From: a virus
DNA length: 52,078 bases
Strand: one strand, 5' to 3'
IMG/VR virus record: IMGVR_UViG_3300020281_000035
Coordinates: 1-52,078 of that record
The notes below the pieces were generated by a model. It made no database searches. It saw nothing but the letters and a program-made list of their open reading frames with translations, and had not been told where the DNA came from. A program made the position numbers and the translations under genes. This document shows, in pieces, positions 15,533 through 46,003 of this stretch (the stretch's first letter is position 1; every line of letters begins with the position of its first letter).

Positions 15533-17043
15533 ATCGCAAATCCGTATTGTGATGTCGATTCAATAAGATGCAATGTCTTTTTAGCACGAGTTATGCCAAC
15601 ATAAAAGGTGCGAACCTCACTGTCTTGATCTTCGCTTTCGACACAAAGTTTTGATGAGTCTAAAAGAACGGCGACGTTATCCGCCTCTCCACCCTTTGCT
15701 TTGTGTATCGTTGATATCTTGATCCTCGGCTTGTCCGTCAGTATCTTCTCTCCCATCCGACGGACTGAACTGATGTATATTCTCTCCTGCTCTGCCACTT
15801 TCAATACTTCGTACCAAGGCTTCTCTTTCAAGTCGTTCGTACAGAAGTTCCCTTTTACGTCGTCTAGAGCGTAAGGCGTTTCGTTGTCGAGGGTGGCTAA
15901 GTTCTTCCTTCCAGATTTGGTCACGATATCCGATTTTAATAATGTAGATAATGTCTTTAGTTCTGTCGCTGTGACGGTCAAACCTTTGCATAATTTAAGC
16001 CATACCTCTATTCCAGTTAGCACATTGGGTGAGATGGACCAACCAGAACCTTCACGCCAGAACAGATATCCCTGTTCCTTGAGGTCTGTAGCAACCTTAT
16101 TAGCAATGTAGTTTGTTCGAGCAAGAATCAGCCACTCGCCGCTGTTAAAGTTGAGGTCCATGATATCGTGATGCCAGACAACTTGCCCAGCCTCACTTAC
16201 AGGTGACCACACTTTTGGCTGTCGCACAACCACTCTATTTACCAGAGAATCCGCTATGTTATATATGTTTCGTGGAAGACGATATGATTTATCTAACACC
16301 ATCTTATTGTCTGATGCGTCCAAGAAATCACGCACGTTCACACCCATCCAAGAGTAAATGCACTGGTCATCATCTCCTGCAAAATAGATACGCTTTGCCC
16401 GTGGCTTTAGTACGTCATGAACCATGCGCCACTGTAGCGGAGCCAAGTCTTGCGCCTCATCGACTATCAGGACATCCAACCTCGGACCTTGGCCCTCGGC
16501 TATGAAGCGGTCAATCATATCTACAAAGTCCAGCTTACCTGTGTCGCGCTTGTAGTCCCGCAACACTTCGTCCACCACCTTCAGTTGCTGATAATGAAGA
16601 TGCCTGTTGTTTGTATCACTGAACTGTTGTTCGAGGGTGACTCCACGCACCCTAGCCAACTGGATCATGGATAGATAGGCATCCCCACCCTTGCCCGGTG
16701 AGAAGAGCCGCCCGTCTTCCATACGGATAGAGGCGTTGGATGAAAACTCTAACCCCAGTATGTGACTAAGTTGCGTGAAGTCTTTCCCTTTCAACACCTG
16801 TCTACTGTTAAGACCTTGGTATTGAAAAGCCATTGAATGAAGAGTACGAAACCAGACCATCTGGTCGGGGTTCATACTCAGCGCAGCCGAAGCACGATTG
16901 CGCGCCTCTTCTGCTGCCTTACGGCTAAAGGACACAAACGCTATGTCCTCTGGCCTTGTGCCATCTTCAAGTTCCTGCTTGACGATAGATATAAGCTTGG
17001 TTGTTTTGCCTGTCCCTGGTGGACCAAAGATTGTTGTCTGCAT
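15529..17043 (-). CDS. UvrD/Rep-like superfamily 1 DNA helicase
   Basis: A 504-residue ATP-dependent 3'-5' type helicase by family. Motifs run in order: Walker A GPPGTGKT (7-14), Ia FVSFSRKAA (36-44), II VDEAQD (194-199), III AGDDDQCIYSWMG (222-234), IV-like SYRLPRNI (about 256), V STIHKAKGGEADNV and VI YVGITRAKKTLHL near the C-terminus. It is shorter than E. coli UvrD (720) because the 1B/2B insertions are reduced. It overlaps the primase gene by one base and DUF6378 by four, so it probably works at the replication fork or in recombination. Confidence 0.93.
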   Translation of the reverse strand: MQTTIFGPPGTGKTTKLISIVKQELEDGTRPEDIAFVSFSRKAAEEARNRASAALSMNPDQMVWFRTLHSMAFQYQGLNSRQVLKGKDFTQLSHILGLEFSSNASIRMEDGRLFSPGKGGDAYLSMIQLARVRGVTLEQQFSDTNNRHLHYQQLKVVDEVLRDYKRDTGKLDFVDMIDRFIAEGQGPRLDVLIVDEAQDLAPLQWRMVHDVLKPRAKRIYFAGDDDQCIYSWMGVNVRDFLDASDNKMVLDKSYRLPRNIYNIADSLVNRVVVRQPKVWSPVSEAGQVVWHHDIMDLNFNSGEWLILARTNYIANKVATDLKEQGYLFWREGSGWSISPNVLTGIEVWLKLCKGLTVTATELKTLSTLLKSDIVTKSGRKNLATLDNETPYALDDVKGNFCTNDLKEKPWYEVLKVAEQERIYISSVRRMGEKILTDKPRIKISTIHKAKGGEADNVAVLLDSSKLCVESEDQDSEVRTFYVGITRAKKTLHLIESTSQYGFAI

Positions 17044-18575
17044 TAGAAGGGCACCTCACTTTCAAGTTCGATACTTGGAACTTGGACCTCGGCATTGAAC
17101 GCTGGCACCCACCAAACGCGCAGAGGTTTAGTATCACCTTTTGTAGTGGCAAACCTTTTTAATCCATTAGCTGTGCCATTGTCGTTCAGTTCTTTTAACC
17201 GCTCCTGAATCTGACCACGGCTATAACTGTCGAACTTCTGGTTGCGCAGGTATTTTAGAAGTGCCTCTAGCTTGAAATATGTGAGACCCTCTTCATCGTC
17301 CGTGAAGGGCTTGCCAAGTGCGATCTCTTCAGCGGACTGGGCTTGTACCCGACCGTCACAAAAGCCCTCTAGCAGGTCCATAAACTGGCCCTTATAGGTA
17401 AGTTCTTCTGGTACATCTATCTCACTCATGCTGTCCATCAACATGGACACAATCACCTGCCAGTCTGCCATCTTCATCATCGGTGGCATGACGTGTATCT
17501 GTTCCATACATGCTTTCTGAAAACGCTGCGGTGTTTGCAGGTCATCAGTTGTCAGTTCGACACGACGACCACCCACGTCACAGAACCACACAGGTGGTTC
17601 AGACTTGACTACACAAAGGCCGGTGATTTCTACATGTTGAACGTGACTGCCTATCCCACACGCTTTTGTTTTGCAGAGCGTTTTGTTGCAGAACGACTTG
17701 AGGGGTTCTTGATCACAGGGGAAACCATATTCCTTCTTATCGTGTTGAGACTGAATAGTGACGATTTCAGAAGCTGGTAAAGGGGGCGTACAGTATTTGA
17801 CATTAATTTCTTCAAGACGTTCTCTCCATTTCTCAGGCTGTTCTTTCTTGGCACCGACAGCAGCAGCAAACATAACTGTGTTGCGGGTGCCCTCTGGTAT
17901 GCCCTGACTAAACATGTGCGACAGACACGGTGCCCACTGGTCAAACTCATCAACAGGGTCGCCAAGCTGTAGCTTTTCAAAATGTTTGGGTTCGGTTCTT
18001 CTGGCCTCTACTAGATCCAGAAATTCGGTAAGGTCCGCTTCGTTTCCATCTTCTTTGATAGCGTAACGCATTGTCTGTTCCGCATCAAAGTACGGAAGGT
18101 TGATAAAGTTACCAATGTCACCACGCTCGACAAGAATCTCTTCTTGTTTCGGGAATATTTCGCAACCACCATATCCAAGATAGGCTGCAATTTCTGTGGC
18201 TTTGTCACGGAAAACACCTGCGCTAAAAAACTTAGTGAAGAAAAAGAATATATGTGCTCCACCTGACTTCGAGCGGCAGACCACACATGGAATATCGTTG
18301 TCGCGCAGCTTCTTGTCAAGTGCGACAAGGTCTAGCGGATACTGGTCAATGTCCAGTGCACCAAACTTACATTGGCTGTTTTCGTTGATAGGTATAGAAC
18401 CTACGCCATGCTTACCTTCAAGGTGTGCGACAATAAGTTCTAACGTAAGAGGCTTTCTAATGATGCGAGACTCTGCCTTTTGTTTTCCAGCACGTCTCTC
18501 ATCTGATATCTGTGTCTGTCCATGTGCGGTGCTGAAACCTTCAAACGCCGCCATGAACCGTTCGGCTTGGTTCAT
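17043..18575 (-). CDS. Archaeo-eukaryotic-type primase (AEP / TOTE-primase-like)
   Basis: This 510-residue protein probably makes primers for the phage polymerase. The AEP catalytic core is visible: DxD motif D75-I-D77 in CKFGALDIDQY, the S-x-x-x-H motif in CRSKSGGAHIFFFF (H108), and the third block CEIFPKQ...GNFINLPYF (136-161). A four-cysteine cluster follows (C285, C294, C299 and C304; FCNKTLCKTKACGIG), as in AEP proteins that carry a zinc or Fe-S binding region. The C-terminal 120 residues look like a winged-helix domain and end in the acidic tip ELESEVPF. No DnaG-type TOPRIM or T7-type helicase domain was seen. It lies between SSB-like and helicase genes. Confidence 0.85.
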   Translation of the reverse strand: MNQAERFMAAFEGFSTAHGQTQISDERRAGKQKAESRIIRKPLTLELIVAHLEGKHGVGSIPINENSQCKFGALDIDQYPLDLVALDKKLRDNDIPCVVCRSKSGGAHIFFFFTKFFSAGVFRDKATEIAAYLGYGGCEIFPKQEEILVERGDIGNFINLPYFDAEQTMRYAIKEDGNEADLTEFLDLVEARRTEPKHFEKLQLGDPVDEFDQWAPCLSHMFSQGIPEGTRNTVMFAAAVGAKKEQPEKWRERLEEINVKYCTPPLPASEIVTIQSQHDKKEYGFPCDQEPLKSFCNKTLCKTKACGIGSHVQHVEITGLCVVKSEPPVWFCDVGGRRVELTTDDLQTPQRFQKACMEQIHVMPPMMKMADWQVIVSMLMDSMSEIDVPEELTYKGQFMDLLEGFCDGRVQAQSAEEIALGKPFTDDEEGLTYFKLEALLKYLRNQKFDSYSRGQIQERLKELNDNGTANGLKRFATTKGDTKPLRVWWVPAFNAEVQVPSIELESEVPF

Positions 18576-19440: not shown

Positions 19441-20004
19441 CTAGCTCCTCTTAATTGTAGCTTCAGTTCCGACGTACACACCGAAGGTATCAAAGTCGAT
19501 ATCCTTACCTGCCTCGATGCGTCCTTTGACCCACGCCTTTAACGTCTGTGGATGGACGTGTGTCTTCTGCGCTGGCTCAAGACCCTGATTGCGGAGGTCG
19601 TCTACGACAGCCCCTGCCATATTATCTTGACCAGAACCGAAGGACACGACGACATCATTCTTGATGATGTCACCTTCTCCGATAGAACGAAGCCAGTTGT
19701 ATGCTTCATCTTTCTTTTCTTCTGGGATACGCGCATGAACGAACTGCCGCAAAGCAACCTTGTTGCCATCGACCGTAACAGAATCCATGCCCATCTCCTG
19801 CATCAGGCTTGGGATATCTTCTTCATTCACTTTGCGTTTCTTGAATTTAAGATCCTTCAGATACTGCTCTGCTTGTGCAATCTCTTCATCGATCTTCATA
19901 GACTGGCGGATGAGATCGGACAATGTCTTGCCCTTATCTTCATTTACCTTGTCGAACTTAGAGGCATCGACTTCCTCATCAAATAGCGAAAACACATCGC
20001 TCAT
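19441..20004 (-). CDS. Conserved-type phage replication-cluster protein, coiled coil
   Basis: This 187-residue protein starts at ATG 20004 with AGGAG nine bases upstream. The N-terminus is acidic (SLFDEEVDASKF), followed by a coiled coil (about 28-62: LIRQSMKIDEEIAQAEQYLK). The second half has IPSLMQEMGMDSVTVDGNKV and a C-terminal block with HPQTLKAWVKGRIEAGKDID. The arrangement (helix hairpin, then 'x-V-x-V-D-G-x-x-V') resembles Gp33-like and related phage proteins found beside single-strand binding or recombination genes. Function is unknown. It starts the operon after the RHH regulator and ends two bases before the SSB-like gene. Confidence 0.6.
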   Translation of the reverse strand: MSDVFSLFDEEVDASKFDKVNEDKGKTLSDLIRQSMKIDEEIAQAEQYLKDLKFKKRKVNEEDIPSLMQEMGMDSVTVDGNKVALRQFVHARIPEEKKDEAYNWLRSIGEGDIIKNDVVVSFGSGQDNMAGAVVDDLRNQGLEPAQKTHVHPQTLKAWVKGRIEAGKDIDFDTFGVYVGTEATIKRS

Positions 20005-20087: not shown

Positions 20088-20231
20088 TCAAGCGGCTTCT
20101 TGTGCACGTTTTTCCTTCAGTATGTGTGTCAATTCCTTGCTCACACTTCTGTCGTTTTTCTGCGCACGTTTCTTGAGATACTCATATATCTGTACCTCAA
20201 CCGCGATTGATTTCCATTTAGTCGTGTCCAT
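20088..20231 (-). CDS. Ribbon-helix-helix (Arc/CopG-like) regulator
   Basis: This 47-residue frame starts at ATG 20231. The sequence fits the RHH fold: a short strand WKSIAVEVQIY (6-16), helix 1 EYLKKRAQKND (17-27), a turn RSVSKE (28-33) and helix 2 LTHILKEKR. Such dimers bind operator DNA through the paired strand. It is the first gene of the leftward replication operon, just downstream of a predicted promoter and followed by hairpins, so it may repress its own promoter (inference). The length suits a minimal RHH protein. Confidence 0.7.
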   Translation of the reverse strand: MDTTKWKSIAVEVQIYEYLKKRAQKNDRSVSKELTHILKEKRAQEAA

Positions 20232-23160: not shown

Positions 23161-23269
23161 GATTATATACTTTCGTAAACAATTTGAACCAACATTTGGG
23201 GCAGTAGTACTGCCCCTGTTCTACTACTATCGCCTGTGCAGCACACTCTGTGCAATGATAATTGGTCAC
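23054..23269 (-). CDS. Zinc-ribbon protein, GTG start
   Basis: A 71-residue protein. GTG 23269 overlaps the TGA of the HNH gene as GTGA. The N-terminus has CTEC (6-9) and CPKC (23-26), 13 residues apart, a compact zinc ribbon preceding WFKLFTKVYNHD. The C-terminal third (GRSGRGVLQRPVREG) overlaps the next gene and may be non-essential. It is one of several small zinc ribbons scattered over this genome. Confidence 0.55.
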   Translation of the reverse strand: MTNYHCTECAAQAIVVEQGQYYCPKCWFKLFTKVYNHDKVKNCKSISVSKAVPIQGRSGRGVLQRPVREGD

Positions 23270-24483
23270 GGCTTCGCTTTCTTTATTACGTTATCATAGA
23301 ACATATTTTCCCTGTGCCACTTCAGGTAACGCTTGCGTCGCTCACCTTCTCCACCTTGCAACAAATGTGCGATGGAAACAGTCCACCAATTTTTAGGCAA
23401 GCCAAGAGCCAGTAACTCTTCGTTTGTAACCTTGGTGCTACGCATCACCCTGCCTTCATCATTAAAGGAAATGAACGCCACCCGTTGGAATCCTTCCACT
23501 GCCTCACAGTCAAACAATTTGTCTGGTAGAATAGACAGCATAAGAATGTTAGCCGGGTCTGCCCCTTCGCCACCCTCGCACTCAGAATCAGGCTTGATGT
23601 GTGACACCCTCAAAAACTCTGGGCTTGATATGTTTGTAAAGGGGCACACAGGATTTCTTTCCAGCATTTTTTTACGCAGTGTCTTTTGATCATACGGCCT
23701 ACCCTTCACGACTGTTTCTTTTCGTTCGCCCACAGCTACCTCCGCTTCCGCCTGTTGCTTCCATTCTTCTGGCACATGATGTCCTTTTGCAAACTGACCG
23801 TTTGGTTTTCTCTCAACATCAGGTTTAACAGGTTTACGCAGAACCAGCCTGCCGTCGTCCATAAAAAGCTGTTTGCTTGAATCAACAAAGCCACTTTTGA
23901 CCGCAGGAAACGGGCCGTCCAACACCTGTTTGGATGGGATCATCATTGCATATTTGTGCAACGATGATAGAGCCTCTGACCTTTGTCTTAGATTACCTTC
24001 TATAAATTGTTCAGTACCAAACACAGCAAGAAAGTTTAGTATTACCTTTGCCCCAAGTGGGGTACACAAAGTTTCTCCCCTCTTGCTGACAGGAAAGGCA
24101 AGCGAATACAATTCCTGTTCTTCCTTGGTGCGTTCCTTCTGCTTGAAAAAACCCGTCAATTCATAGCTAAGTTTTGTGGACCGAGAGTTATGCCCTTTGT
24201 CCGTTCGTATCACGCCATCAATTAAAAAGAACGCATAAGTCCGTAACAAGGCTAGGTCTTCGTCAGCCATCTCAGCCATCAACCCTATGGCCCTTGCATA
24301 AGTTAAGTCCTGTTGCGTGATTCCCGCAAACACGTCTGCGTTTTCAAACGCAGGGATAAGATCATGCAAAACCTTGGGCATAGAAATAAGATGTTCTTTT
24401 AGCTTTCTAGCATACTCAGCACGACGTTGCTTGTCTTCCTTGTCCGCCTGTTCAAGAATCTGCTTTTCTAAATCAATAGTCAT
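23266..24483 (-). CDS. HNH-type nuclease domain protein
   Basis: A 405-residue protein, numbered from ATG 24483, where the start overlaps the previous gene by 11 bases. The open frame continues upstream, but inside that gene. The C-terminus (about 276-330) carries an HNH fold: NPVCPFTNISS, LRVSHIKPDSECEGG (H295), DPANILMLSILPDKLFDCE (N312), with the 'S-H-I-x-P...D-P-x-N...D-x-L-F-D' pattern of the HNH_2 family. The N-terminal 260 residues are helical, with a basic linker DVERKPNGQFAKGHH. It could be a DNA-binding nuclease acting on host or phage DNA. No intron or intein is seen around it, so homing is not indicated. Confidence 0.75.
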   Translation of the reverse strand: MTIDLEKQILEQADKEDKQRRAEYARKLKEHLISMPKVLHDLIPAFENADVFAGITQQDLTYARAIGLMAEMADEDLALLRTYAFFLIDGVIRTDKGHNSRSTKLSYELTGFFKQKERTKEEQELYSLAFPVSKRGETLCTPLGAKVILNFLAVFGTEQFIEGNLRQRSEALSSLHKYAMMIPSKQVLDGPFPAVKSGFVDSSKQLFMDDGRLVLRKPVKPDVERKPNGQFAKGHHVPEEWKQQAEAEVAVGERKETVVKGRPYDQKTLRKKMLERNPVCPFTNISSPEFLRVSHIKPDSECEGGEGADPANILMLSILPDKLFDCEAVEGFQRVAFISFNDEGRVMRSTKVTNEELLALGLPKNWWTVSIAHLLQGGEGERRKRYLKWHRENMFYDNVIKKAKP

Positions 24484-24868
24484 ACGGTTCCTCCCATTCG
24501 TCTGTAAAGACACTATCCAGATGTTTGGTGATGTCGTCCGGTAGATACAGACGTGGCTCTTCGTAGCCCAGCGGCTCAACGTCTTTGCGTGTCGCGCTTC
24601 GATCCTTAATCCTTTGTTCTACCTCTGGCAACCAGTCATCCAAATTGTGCCCATGTTCTTTGTCTTCTGGAAACAGGATGGATTTGCCGTCCTTCTTAAT
24701 GTCAAGAATCATGTAATTGTGACAGCCCCATGTGTCCGTCACGACCTCATAGCCAAGGCTTTCAATCTCACCCTCGACCTCGTGCGTTCCGTTCCAGCCA
24801 TCGCCATCACCGAACCCGAACTTTGAGAAGGCATCTTCCCATTGCCATGTTATGATTACTCTAGGCAT
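24473..24868 (-). CDS. Acidic protein, unknown function
   Basis: A 131-residue protein from ATG 24868, overlapping the upstream stop by 8 bases. It is acidic, with Gly/Asp/Trp-rich start (FGFGDGDGWNGTHEVEGEIE), GYEVVTDTWGCHNYMILDI in the middle and a charged end (TDEWEEPYDY). No domain is known to me. It belongs to the string of small acidic genes from 27.0 to 24.5 kb. Confidence 0.55.
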   Translation of the reverse strand: MPRVIITWQWEDAFSKFGFGDGDGWNGTHEVEGEIESLGYEVVTDTWGCHNYMILDIKKDGKSILFPEDKEHGHNLDDWLPEVEQRIKDRSATRKDVEPLGYEEPRLYLPDDITKHLDSVFTDEWEEPYDY

Positions 24869-26360: not shown

Positions 26361-26782
26361 CAGCTTGCCTCCGCATATGCCCGTAGCATTTCGCTGTGCC
26401 TCATGCTGGCAGTCTCATGCCAGTATTGAGTTTCTAGTTTTTCGTCATAGCGTTTTTCAAAAATTGTTACGAACATATCTTTGTCGAAATCATCCCAACT
26501 GATGAGGTAATAGAAGTCGCACCAGTCGTATTCTTCCATCATCATGGGAATTGATGTATGTTCAAAGTTTGGAAGTAATCGAACCTCACCGCCTTTGGGG
26601 TTTTTGTTTGCCGCAACAAATGCTGCCGCAAATTCATCAGCTTCCCACCTTGGCAAAGGCCAAGCATATGCCTTGGCATCCTCAATGTGCGCTGCCGCAC
26701 CCTGTGGATAGCCGTCATAATGTTTGTAGACACCATAAATGTCTTTGCCGTCGTCGAAAAAATATACCGCTCTTGTACCCAT
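26360..26782 (-). CDS. Conserved-type protein with 'GTRAVYFFDDG' start
   Basis: A 140-residue protein. The N-terminus (MGTRAVYFFDDGKDIYGVYK then HYDGYPQGAA) matches a pattern I recall from phage and bacterial proteins of unknown function in which 'V-Y-K-H-Y-D-G-Y-P' is the hallmark. The middle is Trp/Ala-rich (AYAWPLPRWEADEFAAAFVA), and an acidic core follows (MMEEYDWCDFYYLISWDDFD). The hallmark suggests a real conserved family, but the activity is unknown. Confidence 0.65.
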   Translation of the reverse strand: MGTRAVYFFDDGKDIYGVYKHYDGYPQGAAAHIEDAKAYAWPLPRWEADEFAAAFVAANKNPKGGEVRLLPNFEHTSIPMMMEEYDWCDFYYLISWDDFDKDMFVTIFEKRYDEKLETQYWHETASMRHSEMLRAYAEAS

Positions 26783-27070: not shown

Positions 27071-27098
27071 ATCCTATAGGATTACATGGGATAGTCAA
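27071..27098 (-). promoter_or_regulatory. Leftward early promoter
   Basis: On the minus strand TTGACT (27098-27093) and TAGGAT (27076-27071) are 16 bases apart, a sigma-70-like pair preceding the gene that starts at 27030. The surrounding bases TACATGGGATA (plus strand, 27084-27094) also occur beside the promoter near 30190, a possible shared regulator site. Confidence 0.6.
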
Positions 27099-27106
27099 CA
27101 ACAAAA

Positions 27107-27242
27107 TGCATCTGACTATAATGTTTTTTTTGCCTTTTAATTTTTTGAAAAAATTTTTGAGAAATGCCGTTACAAACGTTACAAACGTTACAACCCTTAT
27201 CACACAAGGGATACAGCTGTAACACTTCTGTAACGTTGTAAC
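27107..27242. promoter_or_regulatory. A/T-rich tract plus mirrored GTTACAA iterons: candidate operator or origin
   Basis: An A/T-rich tract (27107-27165, with runs of T and A) is followed by three direct copies of GTTACAA at exactly 9-base spacing (27169, 27178, 27187). A CCCTT/AAGGG hairpin comes next (27194-27210). Three inverted copies TGTAAC follow (27218, 27229, 27237). Direct iterons beside an A/T-rich tract are typical of replication origins, while mirrored copies are typical of operators. The region lies between divergent early and small-terminase genes, so either role fits. Confidence 0.6.
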
Positions 27243-27257
27243 ACTTACGAGGGGGCC

Positions 27258-27857
27258 GTGAGACGAAAAATGGAAAAACAAAAGACTGAACCCACAGAAA
27301 ACACTATAGGCAAAGTTGGTAGACCTGCTGGATTGACGGAACGCCAAAAGACTTTTGCCAAGTTTTATGTCGAGGGCAGACACAGTAACGCTGAGTGTGC
27401 AAGAATGGCTGGCTACTCTGACAAGTCTTCTATTACCATGGCATCCAAACTTCTGAATGGTAGAGACTTCCCTGATGTTGTCGAACTGATAAAAGAACTG
27501 CGACAGGCGGCTGAACGCAGATATGGCGTGACCCTGATGCATCAGCTTAAACGGCTGGATGAATTGTCGAGGGGTGCAGAAGAGGCTGGACAATATTCTG
27601 CCGCAATCAACGCTGAAAAAATCCGTTCCGCTTTGGGTGGCCTGACTATTGACAGGCGAGAACAGCAACACGTCCACCAGTTGGACAGCATGACCAAACA
27701 GGATATTGTCGCACGTCTGGCAGAATTGCGGAAATCCTATCCACACGCTTTTATCGAGGGGGAAATATCTGATGCCAAAATCATCGAAGACAGAGAAAAA
27801 CCTTTGGCAATCACTGAAGAAACACTTGCCGAAAAAGACACACTGCCAACGGATTGA
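27258..27857 (+). CDS. terS: Terminase small subunit
   Basis: This 199-residue protein should recognise phage DNA for packaging. The N-terminal half contains a helix-turn-helix-like region typical of small terminases: LTERQKTFAKFYVEGRHSNA, ECARMAGYSDKSSITMASKL, LNGRDFPDVVELIKELRQ (about 27-78). A helical oligomerisation region follows (to about 125), and a Lys/Glu-rich tail. Starts are GTG 27258 (GAGGGGG directly upstream) or ATG 27270. It lies 2.5 kb from the large subunit, separated by a leftward island. Confidence 0.8.
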   Translation: MRRKMEKQKTEPTENTIGKVGRPAGLTERQKTFAKFYVEGRHSNAECARMAGYSDKSSITMASKLLNGRDFPDVVELIKELRQAAERRYGVTLMHQLKRLDELSRGAEEAGQYSAAINAEKIRSALGGLTIDRREQQHVHQLDSMTKQDIVARLAELRKSYPHAFIEGEISDAKIIEDREKPLAITEETLAEKDTLPTD

Positions 27858-28209
27858 GAATCGTGTAGCAGAGGGAATGCCCGATGTATATATGTGCATC
27901 GATGGCGCACCAGTATGGGTTGAATTAAAGATAATAAAAAGAAATGGGATAACCCTACAACCGTCCCAAATTGCTTGGCATTTATCGCATTCTAGGTGCG
28001 GTGGCGTTTCTTTTTTTCTTGCTTCGACGGCCTCCGAGCCTGATGTATTTTTATTTGAGAGCGGAAAAGCTTTGGAAATCCAAGGTGCAAGGGCTGATGA
28101 CCTGCGGCCCATGTCCATCTGGCAGGGCGATATTAAATCTGCGCCCGACGCTCTGCGATCTGCGGCCTGCGAACGATGGTCTGCGGCCTGCGGCCTGCGA
28201 ACGATGTAG
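27772..28209 (+). CDS. VRR-NUC / PD-(D/E)XK nuclease with repeat-derived tail
   Basis: A 145-residue protein from ATG 27772 (GAGGGGG ten bases upstream), overlapping the small terminase by 86 bases. The nuclease core is R-I-E-N-R-V-A-E-G-M-P-D (D38), VWVELKI (E51, K53) and LQPSQIAWH (Q66), the VRR-NUC pattern of phage Holliday-junction-type nucleases. The last 18 residues (RSAACERWSAACGLRTM) are encoded by the CTGCGGCC repeats at 28160-28206, so the natural C-terminus may have been replaced or extended by repeat sequence. It may trim packaged DNA or process junctions (inference). Confidence 0.8.
   Translation: MPKSSKTEKNLWQSLKKHLPKKTHCQRIENRVAEGMPDVYMCIDGAPVWVELKIIKRNGITLQPSQIAWHLSHSRCGGVSFFLASTASEPDVFLFESGKALEIQGARADDLRPMSIWQGDIKSAPDALRSAACERWSAACGLRTM
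28099..28112 (+). repeat. 14-base direct repeat, left copy (with 30297-30310)
   Basis: GACCTGCGGCCCAT occurs here inside the nuclease gene and again at 30297-30310 upstream of the large terminase. The two copies flank the leftward gene island that separates the two terminase genes. Confidence 0.75.
28160..28206 (+). repeat. CTGCGGCC repeat cluster, left side
   Basis: Two exact 19-base copies of CTGCGGCCTGCGAACGATG lie at 28160-28178 and 28188-28206, with an extra CTGCGGC unit between. Related copies occur at 28913-28947. The G/C-rich repeats differ from the surrounding coding DNA. Confidence 0.85.
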
Positions 28210-28223
28210 TAGGATTCGCGCAT

Positions 28224-28261: not shown

Positions 28262-28849
28262 CTAGTGTTTGTGATATGAAACTGTTTTAACATCACGCGA
28301 CCAGCAAGCGCGGCATTCGCCACACTTTCCGCCTTGCGTTGGTGCTGGGCATTCGTGACCAATTGGCGCGGCATTCTTTACGACTGCGCTTGAGTGTTCC
28401 CAATCTTGCGGTGGCGTGTCGTCAATCATTGTTGCGCTGTATCTGATAACAGCATTATCTGGCAACGCTTCAAGCTTCAATGCTTCCTGCCAAATTTTGC
28501 GTTCTTTTGTGGGGATCCAGTGTTTCTTTTCTGGTGTTGCTTTGATTACGTCGATAATGTTTAACGCCATGCGGACGTTCTGCACGTCGCCTGAATCGAA
28601 CCAACGGAAATAAGGCGACCTTGTCTTGTTCAACATAGCGACCATTTGCGGGACAAAATCAAGAGCATTAAAAAACTTTAACCGCTCTTCCATTTTGTCA
28701 ACCACGTTCGGCATATTGTAGCGGCCTTTTCTAGCGTAGCAGTCATGGCAGACTGAGCCTTTAATCTTTGCTAGCTTGTCGCCTGTTTTACACTTCCATG
28801 CTGAAAGGCTAACAGAATAGCCTGGCATTTTACTGGTGTTTGATAACAT
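28262..28849 (-). CDS. GP88-like / Cys-rich metalloprotein-like phage protein
   Basis: A 195-residue protein from ATG 28849, with AAGGAA eight bases upstream and a promoter just before. The N-terminus reads NTSKMPGYSVSLSAWKCKTG, then GSVCHDCYARKGRYNMPNVV, then a conserved-looking FRWFDSGDVQ and HWIPTKERKIW. It ends in a second Cys block, CPAPTQGGKCGECRACW. A C-x-x-C-Y-A motif near the N-terminus plus C-terminal cysteines is the pattern of phage GP88/DUF7227-type proteins, possibly a Fe-S or zinc protein. The function is unknown. It has its own promoter and terminator, like a self-contained accessory gene. Confidence 0.7.
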   Translation of the reverse strand: MLSNTSKMPGYSVSLSAWKCKTGDKLAKIKGSVCHDCYARKGRYNMPNVVDKMEERLKFFNALDFVPQMVAMLNKTRSPYFRWFDSGDVQNVRMALNIIDVIKATPEKKHWIPTKERKIWQEALKLEALPDNAVIRYSATMIDDTPPQDWEHSSAVVKNAAPIGHECPAPTQGGKCGECRACWSRDVKTVSYHKH

Positions 28850-28877
28850 AGCTTTTCCTTTCTTATTATCTTTTCCC

Positions 28878-28905
28878 ATTTTATCCCAACCACAGAATAA
28901 GTCAA
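28878..28905 (-). promoter_or_regulatory. Promoter of the GP88-like gene
   Basis: On the minus strand TTGACT (28905-28900) and TAAAAT (28883-28878) are 16 bases apart, close to the sigma-70 consensus. The downstream ATG at 28849 lies about 20 bases after the expected transcription start. Because an ATG at 28879 is inside the -10 box, the longer reading frame start (28972) is not used. Confidence 0.7.
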
Positions 28906-28912
28906 CTTTAAT

Positions 28913-28947
28913 CTGCGGCCTGCGGCCCACGCCTGCGGCCTGCGAAC
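28913..28947 (+). repeat. CTGCGGCC repeat cluster, right side
   Basis: CTGCGGCCTGCGGCCC at 28913-28928 and CTGCGGCCTGCGAAC at 28933-28947 match the units at 28160-28206 in the same orientation. Together the two clusters bracket the GP88-like gene and its promoter and terminator. Confidence 0.8.
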
Positions 28948-28970
28948 TTCGGATGCGCGACGCGCACAAC

Positions 28971-29009
28971 AAGGAAGGCAGGCCCAGCTACGCTGGGCCT
29001 GCCTTCCTT
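28971..29009 (-). terminator. Perfect 17-base-pair stem-loop
   Basis: Bases 28971-28987 pair perfectly with 28993-29009 around a five-base loop CTACG. An outer CACAAC/GTTGTG pairing (28965-28970 with 29013-29018) extends it past a three-base bulge. It follows the leftward genes from 30.1 kb and could end them, but it lacks a long T tract on either strand, so it may instead block exonucleases or act as a bidirectional barrier. Confidence 0.6.
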
Positions 29010-29334: not shown

Positions 29335-29517
29335 CTACTTTGCTTGTTGTTTTAAGTTATCCAGCTTCACTGCTTTTAATGCTGGATTGATTCCGTTTAT
29401 GATAGCGTCAAGCTTCACGAGGTGATGCTTGGCCTCTTCATCCCGACCTACTGCGTTCATCAACAGATAAAACTGATAGGTAAACCGCAACTGGTCTTTC
29501 AAGGTTTTATACGCCAT
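29335..29517 (-). CDS. Small helical protein, unknown function
   Basis: A 60-residue protein from ATG 29517 that overlaps the upstream winged-helix gene by 11 bases (an in-frame ATG at 29547 exists inside that gene). It is nearly all helix: LKDQLRFTYQFYLLMNAVGR, then HHLVKLDAIINGINPALKAV. Probably a small dimeric or partner protein. No family is recognised. Confidence 0.5.
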   Translation of the reverse strand: MAYKTLKDQLRFTYQFYLLMNAVGRDEEAKHHLVKLDAIINGINPALKAVKLDNLKQQAK

Positions 29518-30365: not shown

Positions 30366-31853
30366 ATGGAGAACCTTGGACTAGAGCTACTTCCTGATGA
30401 TGTATTGAAGGAAATTTACCTGCTAGAAGAGCAGGCGAAGCGACTTGACCTGCGTGACAAAGCACAAGAAGACTTTATGTCTTATGTTCACCACGTCTAT
30501 GACAATTTCATAGAGGGGACCCATCATAGAATCATAGCTGAAAAGCTAGAGCGGATTGCCAAGGGCGATTTGAAAAGACTGATTGTCAATATGCCGCCCC
30601 GACATTCAAAGTCAGAATTTGCATCCTATCTCATGCCCTCCTGGTTCTTGGGCCGAAATCCAAAGTTAAAGATTATTCAGGCTACCATGAATACCGAACT
30701 TGCTGTAAGATTCGGAAGAAAGGTCCGAGACCTGATCGCCGACCCGGTATATCGGGAGGTCTTTCCCAACACGGACCTAAAACAGGATAGCCAAGCTGCT
30801 GGTCGGTGGGAGACTAGCGTCGGCGGGGAATATTTCGCAGCAGGGGTGGGAGCGGCGATGACTGGTCGTGGCGCAGACTTGCTTATCATCGATGACCCGC
30901 ACTCGGAACAAGATGCGCTATCCGCGTCTGCTTATGATAATGCGTATGAGTGGTACACTTCGGGTCCTAGACAGAGACTCCAGCCGGGTGGCAGCATAAT
31001 TATTGTTCAAACCCGGTGGTCAAAGAAGGATATTACGGGCAGGTTACTGACCGCACAAGCCAAAGATGTTATGGCTGACCAGTGGGATGTTGTAGAATTT
31101 CCTGCGATTATGCCGTCGGGGGAACCATTATGGCCTGAATTTTGGCAAAAGGACGAGCTTCTCAAGGTCAAAGCTTCGTTGTCCGTGGGCAAATGGAATG
31201 CGCAGTGGCAACAAAATCCTACGTCCGAAGAAACCGCGATGGTCAAGCGGGACTGGTGGCAGGAGTGGGAAGAAGACGATATTCCTGATTTAGACTACAT
31301 AATACAGTCGTATGATACCGCGTATTCAAAGAAAGAAACCGCTGACTATTCTGCTATTACAACGTGGGGTGTGTTTCGCCCGTACAAAAATTCTGAGGAG
31401 CATCTAATATTGTTAGATGCCAAGAAAGGTCGGTGGAACTTTCCAGAACTTAAAACCATAGCGCGTGAAGAGTTTGAGTATTGGGACCCAGAGTTGATGT
31501 TGATTGAGGCAAAAGCGTCTGGTCAACCGTTGGCTGATGAAATGCGGTTACTGAACCTCCCGGTTGCAACCTTTGCCCCCGGTCGTCGGAAGGGTGGGGG
31601 AGGTCTGGACAAGACTGCGCGTATGCATATTGTTTCGCCTATTTTTGAATCTGGCAAAGTGTGGTATCCTGTTGGAGAAAAATTTGCTGACGAAGTCATC
31701 GAAGAGGTTGCATCATTTCCTAATGGCGACCATGATGACTTTTGTGATAGTATGACTATGGCCCTGATGCGTTTTCGCCAGGGCGGTTTTATTAGATTGG
31801 ATGGCGAAGAGTTTGAAGACGACGCACCGCCACGCAAAAGAGAGTATTACTAA
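30366..31853 (+). CDS. terL: Terminase large subunit
   Basis: A 495-residue DNA-packaging ATPase and nuclease. ATPase: Walker A-like MPPRHSKS (76-83), Walker B LLIIDDPH (172-179) and a coupling motif IIVQTRWS (212-219). RNase H-like nuclease: D317 in SYDTAYS, E381 in LIEAKASG, D457/D458 in DHDDFCDS. The length fits the family. It starts the rightward late operon and overlaps the next gene by one base (TAATGG). Absence of a clear ribosome-binding site upstream of the ATG is unusual. Confidence 0.95.
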   Translation: MENLGLELLPDDVLKEIYLLEEQAKRLDLRDKAQEDFMSYVHHVYDNFIEGTHHRIIAEKLERIAKGDLKRLIVNMPPRHSKSEFASYLMPSWFLGRNPKLKIIQATMNTELAVRFGRKVRDLIADPVYREVFPNTDLKQDSQAAGRWETSVGGEYFAAGVGAAMTGRGADLLIIDDPHSEQDALSASAYDNAYEWYTSGPRQRLQPGGSIIIVQTRWSKKDITGRLLTAQAKDVMADQWDVVEFPAIMPSGEPLWPEFWQKDELLKVKASLSVGKWNAQWQQNPTSEETAMVKRDWWQEWEEDDIPDLDYIIQSYDTAYSKKETADYSAITTWGVFRPYKNSEEHLILLDAKKGRWNFPELKTIAREEFEYWDPELMLIEAKASGQPLADEMRLLNLPVATFAPGRRKGGGGLDKTARMHIVSPIFESGKVWYPVGEKFADEVIEEVASFPNGDHDDFCDSMTMALMRFRQGGFIRLDGEEFEDDAPPRKREYY

Positions 31854-45438: not shown

Positions 45439-45505
45439 ATTGTATACTTAGGTATCCCTGACAGCCGCATGGTGTGGCTGACACTAGCCGAGACAGGAGA
45501 TAAAA

Positions 45506-46003
45506 TTGGCTAATACTACATTTAACGGTCCCGTCCGTTCAGAAAACGGATTCAAGACAATCATTAAGAACTCCACAACTGGTGCTCTTACTAATGAAAT
45601 GACCTTGTCTACCTATAGCACTTCAATAACAATCGCGGCATCTGGCACATCTTTTAAAGAGGCTGCTATTGGAATGCCTGCTCATTTCATTCCAATGGGC
45701 GTAGCTGTTACCGTAACAACTGCGGCGGCGAACAGTGTGACATTGGACGATATTGGCACAGACGCAGACCCAGATGGTTTTGTTGACGGAGCCTCTGGAA
45801 TTGATTTAGATGCAACAGGATTTAAAGGTTTCTATTTTTGTAATGGAGTCTTGGGTATGTCTGGTGGCACAACAGGTCCAGCAGTTAGCGCAACTGGTGC
45901 GGCAGATGAGATTGAGATTGCAATTTCTGGTGCAGCAGGTGGTAGCGGTTCTGTGGTCGCATTGAAATTCTTCGGCATTTCATCTAGCGCATCTACAGCC
46001 TAA
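45506..46003 (+). CDS. Putative virion protein, TTG start
   Basis: A 165-residue protein that begins with TTG at 45506 (AGGAGA five bases upstream), because no ATG or GTG fits. It is beta-rich and Gly/Ala/Thr-rich: NTTFNGPVRSENGFKTIIKN, then GVAVTVTTAAANSVTLDDIG and GTDADPDGFVDGASGIDLDA. The 'N-G-P-V-R-S-E-x-G-F-K' start is typical of small phage virion proteins close to capsid genes. It may be a head decoration or fibre-type protein. It follows the capsid terminator. Confidence 0.6.
   Translation: MANTTFNGPVRSENGFKTIIKNSTTGALTNEMTLSTYSTSITIAASGTSFKEAAIGMPAHFIPMGVAVTVTTAAANSVTLDDIGTDADPDGFVDGASGIDLDATGFKGFYFCNGVLGMSGGTTGPAVSATGAADEIEIAISGAAGGSGSVVALKFFGISSSASTA

Follow-up and report, generated by a model that had tools for sequence, protein, structure and literature searches.

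A mirrored repeat array upstream of terS

The complete linear viral record IMGVR_UViG_3300020281_000035 (52,078 bases; hereafter the window, that is, the whole stretch of DNA analysed) carries a mirrored array of short repeats, or iterons, in the non-coding DNA immediately left of the terminase small subunit gene terS (27258..27857, plus strand; phrog_51, E 1e-13; Pfam Terminase_2), and it is the relation of this array to the phage's own primase that is examined here. The left half of the array (27169..27193, plus strand) consists of three direct iterons GTTACAA starting at 27169, 27178 and 27187, with a period of 9 bases, an architecture that relatives keep. The right half (27218..27242, minus strand) consists of three inverted iterons, read as TGTAAC at 27218, 27229 and 27237, and its spacings of 11 and 8 bases are irregular. 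Between the halves, a spacer (27194..27217) that varies in sequence between relatives holds the dyad arms CCCTT (27194-27198) and AAGGG (27206-27210). Both sets of repeats, the 9-base spacing and the dyad had been described in a first-pass annotation made from the letters alone and are exact in the sequence; the A/T-rich tract that it placed to the left corresponds to 27109..27168 (77% A+T). One 6-mer is found six times, three per orientation, inside 110 bp. In 40 Markov shuffles of the window, 5 copies with two in each orientation never arose, and the array is the sole cluster in the window with at least 5 copies of a 6-mer and at least 2 per orientation; the repeats are beyond chance. A search against Rfam gave no match at the array.

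The A/T-rich tract is a candidate DNA unwinding element. Its composition is matched by just 0.17% of the 60-bp windows of the sequence, and such a tract adjoins the array at the same place in 45 of 45 relatives, with a mean of 78% A+T. Several short repeats closely grouped in non-coding DNA, next to an element that is A/T-rich in composition and may unwind, are the features of an iteron-type origin. To the left lies a leftward operon encoding DNA polymerase A, a UvrD-like helicase, an AEP-type primase, an SNF2-like helicase and two proteins with relatives in phage Pam3; it is faced by a sigma70-like promoter-like site, recognized by consensus match only (TTGACT-16-TAGGAT; 27071..27098, minus strand). 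The description of this locus as a divergent early region holds for this left side with its replication genes, but not for the right side, which is occupied by terS and, further right, by terL (30366-31853). The cumulative GC skew, proposed in the same annotation as a check, does reach its minimum nearby, at about 29-31 kb of the window, but it tracks gene orientation and is uninformative for an origin.

Fixed architecture and changing word among relatives

Relatives were collected by a TerS search, which yielded 77 viral loci (numbered with the prefix L). Most loci whose TerS identity exceeds about 60% have short repeats at the same place, of which three are direct and about three inverted. 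The word itself varies: GTTACAA, GATACAA/GGTACAA, GTCTCAA, GTCTTAA, GTCACAA, GGGACAA, GTAACAG, GGGATGA, GTAACCA, GTACTGA, GTGACGA, GTAATGA, GGGACGA, GTAGCAT and GTAGAAA were found, and more. Close relatives lacking the repeats at the syntenic position had been named beforehand as grounds for abandoning the idea of a functional element. The exact words are indeed often absent, so that such grounds exist to the letter, yet comparison of the loci indicates that this is misleading, a 3+3 array of another spelling being present. The left and right halves switch word jointly while the flanks are nearly identical, and one cassette can occur in separate lineages (e.g. in L003 and L019, or in L009/L010 and L020/L028). 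These observations suggest that the word apparently changes by recombination of short cassettes.

A search for satellites bearing the exact GTTACAA triple retrieved 14 viral contigs, 12 with the triple upstream of terS and two in which it belongs to a coding TNVTNV repeat of a structural protein; no satellite was found by this search. An automatic array search of DSL-LC04, HTVC027P and 023Pt_psg01 gave nothing convincing. A looser scan of HTVC023P showed copies of TAGGAA upstream of terS. In the clade with GTAGCAT or GTAGAAA (L042-L051), a second protein of the ribbon-helix-helix (RHH) type is encoded just left of the array.

Covariation of the word with the wing of the primase

The primase of the leftward operon (17043..18575, minus strand; 510 aa; phrog_21866) is of the AEP(TOTE) type, as supported by its match to PF22548 (AEP-TOTE, E 3e-16), which identifies the AEP catalytic domain, and by its fold: a Foldseek search likened the model to CAPP Prim-Pol (E 1e-9). 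The AlphaFold2 prediction, built on 67 members of the primase family, gives a C-terminal winged-helix domain (residues 398-491; 17103..17384, minus strand), with helices at 436-445 and 453-462 and a hairpin at 470-476/482-491. When this domain was folded alone, block means of the predicted local distance difference test (pLDDT) were mostly 94-97.

The covariation analysis covered 45 non-redundant phages of 19 word classes, each having both an array upstream of terS and a complete primase. The repeat triples were found by script, and the register of L007, L009, L028, L218, L319 and L332 was set by hand to start at the conserved G. Phage pairs were binned by primase distance outside the wing, a design that controls relatedness only roughly, and all 510 primase columns were scanned. 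With 5-base words, the top columns were 472 (r 0.504), 484 (0.386) and 474 (0.219); over 200 within-clade shuffles, no column exceeded 0.238. With 6-base words, and L333 omitted, the same columns reached 0.52 (472), 0.44 (484) and 0.31 (474), against a maximum of 0.28 in 1000 shuffles. Base by base, the mapping is only partly significant, linking 472 with word position 3 and 474 with position 4. These three columns fall in the predicted beta-hairpin of the winged-helix domain, its wing (residues 470-491; 17103..17168, minus strand). In the window the corresponding residues are L472 (codon 17160-17162), R474 (17154-17156) and P484 (17124-17126), all on the minus strand. They occupy alternate positions on the two wing strands, and in the model they would share a single wing face, a placement expected of residues in contact with DNA. 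The same scan on ten other phage proteins gave no column clearly over the shuffle maximum, the protein at 19441 having one borderline column (0.21). Among the proteins tested, the word thus covaries with the primase wing and with no other.

Other candidates for reading the array were considered. Neither binder proposed in the first-pass annotation is supported: the RHH protein at 20088 does not vary among L012-L016 and L031, although these bear three words, and the winged-helix protein at 29507 has no tblastn match (E 1e-3) in L012-L016, L022 and other array-bearing relatives. TerS does not qualify as the specific binder either, because its first 100 residues can be identical where words differ (L016 versus L017/L018; L019 versus L020/L028) and none of its columns exceeded the shuffles. 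The neighbouring genes at 26782 and 26360 have no covarying columns, with only 14 and 11 phages comparable, respectively, and for TerL too few phages were available for a scan. An HNH-type gene at 23266-24579 (weak match to PF13391) is 96-97% identical in L013, L014 and L016 and missing from other close relatives; it is a sporadic, probably mobile insert, and its occurrence is unrelated to the word.

A proposed residue-to-word code

The residues at 472/474/484 can be set against the words as follows: L/R/P goes with GTTACAA, Q/R/P with GATACAA-GGTACAA-GATACAA, R/R/P with GGAACAA, H/R/Q with GTAACAG or GTAACAA, K/Y/Q with GTCTCAA or GTCTTAA, Q/K/N with GGGACAA, V/K/N with GTAGCAT, V/K/S with GTAGAAA, V/K/T with GTAACC and V/R/T with GTAACA. 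Near-isogenic pairs are instructive. Positions 465, 467 and 472 are the only differences between the L250 and L252 primases; the word changes from GTTACAA to GATACAA. In the second pair, L317 and L319, identity is about 98% across most of 20 kb, the primases have seven differences, among them F472L and K474R, and GTGACAA becomes GTTACGA. Between lineages less than 88% identical, the same core word is shared by 30 of 32 pairs with all three residues equal, and by 3.5% of pairs with no residue equal.

More distant loci, retrieved once the code had been proposed, served as test loci. Those with known triples fit the prediction: L427 (Q/R/P) has GATACAA-GGTACAA-GATACAA, L428 (V/K/T; 69% identical) has GTAACCA, and L441/L442 (V/R/T) have GTAACA. 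A detectable array lies near terS in 10 of the 12 held-out loci of the phage family with TerS.

Homologous primases in cultured phages

Homologues of the primase, with 28-30% identity, are found in phages of Acinetobacter, Klebsiella, Salmonella, Providencia and Pseudomonas. In all 13 cultured phages examined, direct and inverted repeats are clustered just upstream of the primase gene; whole genomes were scanned automatically, a scan passed clearly by Kokobel2 and PMBT28 only, and the other arrays were read by eye. The words are TGGAACC in Kokobel2, TGGAACG in PMBT28, PSA28, VLCpiS6a and K21lambda1, GGGTAAC in Barton and JeffCo, GAGCAACC in SH-Ab 15497, DMU1 and 2AB-P, GAGGAACC/GAGTAACC in Bhz9 and Bhz20, and GAGAAACC/GAGTAACC in pB23, and the wings of these primases differ in line with their words.

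Two mirrored arrays of the same word are present in each of Providencia phage Kokobel2 (L363; 14183 and 39187) and Salmonella phage PMBT28 (L364; 20887 and 43645), one of the two lying upstream of the primase gene in either genome; both may be origins, or one of them may be an operator. SH-Ab 15497 (L362) and PMBT28 also encode a phage adenylosuccinate synthetase. Phages with 2-aminoadenine DNA carry such a gene, and the primase wing of these two phages may thus read modified bases.

Discussion

We consider it probable that in this family of marine phages the array is a replication origin, bound by the wing of the primase through an evolvable residue-to-word code, and origin function is likewise the most likely role of the array as such. 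The first-pass annotation had offered an origin or a master operator; the origin half of that reading is well supported by comparison, given the covariation between the word and the phage's own primase wing, whereas the operator is its main rival. From the architecture, the covariation and the predicted fold, which comparison supports, we infer binding, melting, priming and origin function in the following manner. Copies of the primase, the putative initiator, would attach to the 7-bp iterons, three direct and three inverted, via the wing of the C-terminal winged-helix domain, residues 472, 474 and 484 reading the variable bases of the word. The mirrored primase clusters beside the A/T-rich element would then melt the tract, and the primase would prime forks together with the phage helicases and Pol A, perhaps one fork per direction because of the mirrored array. 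Re-keying of this system would involve the concerted change of two or three wing residues and of all iterons, apparently via the recombination of short cassettes.

Several points speak against this proposal. The C-terminal domain has no significant match in the PDB, the best being a TcpK-like protein, the pCW3 relaxosome accessory protein on oriT DNA (E 0.86). With 5-base words, column 474 alone stays just under the shuffle maximum, although 6-base words lift it over that limit. An exception to the code is formed by L030 and L040, which have the words GTACTGA and GGGACGA with the same three residues, and L007 and L009 are one word base apart with the same wing. The primases of L332 and L333 are identical and their words differ; because the similarity of L333 to L332 stops abruptly at about 2.2 kb from the left end of L333, the latter may be a chimeric assembly or a fresh recombinant. 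No array was detected in two of the held-out TerS loci, L464 and L472. Finally, the protein that reads the array could serve transcription control additionally or instead.

This last possibility is the strongest of the alternatives, although we judge it rather unlikely as the principal role: the primase, or a cofactor of the same specificity, would bind the array chiefly as a regulator of transcription of the leftward operon and/or terS. The position of the array between the leftward promoter-like site and terS is in keeping with an operator, as is the location of the arrays of cultured relatives just upstream of the primase gene, as in autoregulation. Such a role accords less well with the identity of the covarying protein, which is a primase, with the retention of the A/T-rich tract in every one of the 45 relatives, and with the distance of about 9 kb between array and primase gene in this phage. 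It is also compatible with an origin, and both functions could coexist. A packaging signal, i.e. a pac or cosB-like array bound by TerS, would explain the constant position beside terS in this phage family, but we hold it to be very improbable. Words change while the N-terminal region of TerS stays constant, which argues indirectly against recognition by TerS, no TerS column exceeds the shuffles, and the arrays of cultured relatives lie upstream of the primase gene and not of terS. Least credible is that only pairing of the mirrored arms matters, as a cruciform or RNA hairpin, with words drifting under compensation: the array strand does fold better than shuffles (z -3.7), but pairing by itself gives no reason for the three direct copies to remain identical and leaves the covariation with wing residues of a DNA-binding domain unexplained.

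If the array is an origin read by the primase wing, a broader and more tentative proposition, which we would not yet favour, is that lytic marine phages possess private, fast-diversifying origin 'barcodes', read through a simple residue-to-base code and kept apart by selection against cross-use, so that near-identical phages would form replication-incompatible groups. As a guess, such diversity may let a phage escape cross-use by a co-infecting phage or a satellite, or evade nucleases directed at origins.

The kind of system is already known. We know of no specificity code for P4. In that phage, the winged helix of the alpha protein binds origin repeats, and the protein then unwinds and primes (PMC4234260). 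The likeness lies in a replication protein with primase activity, origin repeats and a winged-helix domain, but P4 combines a Toprim-type primase with its own helicase in one protein (PMC4234260), whereas the AEP/TOTE primase described here contains no helicase family and the helicases are separate open reading frames. In PLE, the satellite of ICP1, the DNA-binding domain of RepA covaries with the origin, experiments showed that only cognate pairs replicate, and the origin-directed nuclease Odn, a RepA mimic, is thought to drive RepA-origin swaps (PMC8263062). PLE has a RepA_N initiator, three iterons of about 30 bp and two groups, in contrast to the AEP primase wing, the 7-bp words, the 19 word classes in 45 phages and the switches by 2-3 residues of the present family. 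Lambda O, like the initiator proposed here, acts on iterons adjoining an A/T-rich region (PMC4488673); in lambda the O gene itself contains the iterons, four repeats of 19 bp, whereas those of the window are intergenic, mirrored (3+3) and about 9 kb (27169-27242 versus 17043-18575) from the gene of the putative binder. For PrimQH and PolpTN2-like AEP primases, a C-terminal winged helix has been proposed, without test, to recognize origins (PMC5862659). That role was speculated from modelling, whereas here wing residues are linked to words by comparison; the present primase matches the AEP-TOTE Pfam family and is likened to PrimQH by domain layout only. No description of these arrays was found in the open literature searched, which covers part of all literature. 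Within those limits, what appears to be new is the AEP-primase wing as a putative reader in a large phage family, together with the large number of 7-bp words that can replace one another and the exchange of one word for another by way of two or three residues.

The code would allow primases and origins to be matched by a testable rule across a large family of uncultured phages, with near-isogenic pairs as natural experiments, and it lends comparative support to origin recognition by a C-terminal winged helix, so far a speculation for some AEP primases. A few substitutions would seem to be enough to re-key a phage origin, a point of interest for co-infection, for satellites and for defence systems that target origins, and the code could be of use in locating origins and predicting cross-compatibility from sequence alone.

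Other features of the genome

The sequence TTGTTGAC is repeated on the minus strand in three intergenic regions (20290, 27098 and 30185), upstream of leftward genes, and CATGGGATA stands beside it in two of the three; these sites are probably a family of early promoters. The gene at 28262-28972 is flanked by simple repeats of CTGCGGCCTGCGAAC (28150-28210 and 28915-28945), and its version differs strongly among relatives (about 51-98% identity). A Mu-gpT-DE RNA (Rfam RF03012, 65.6 bits) is located at 45456-45508, directly 5' of the open reading frame 45506-46003.
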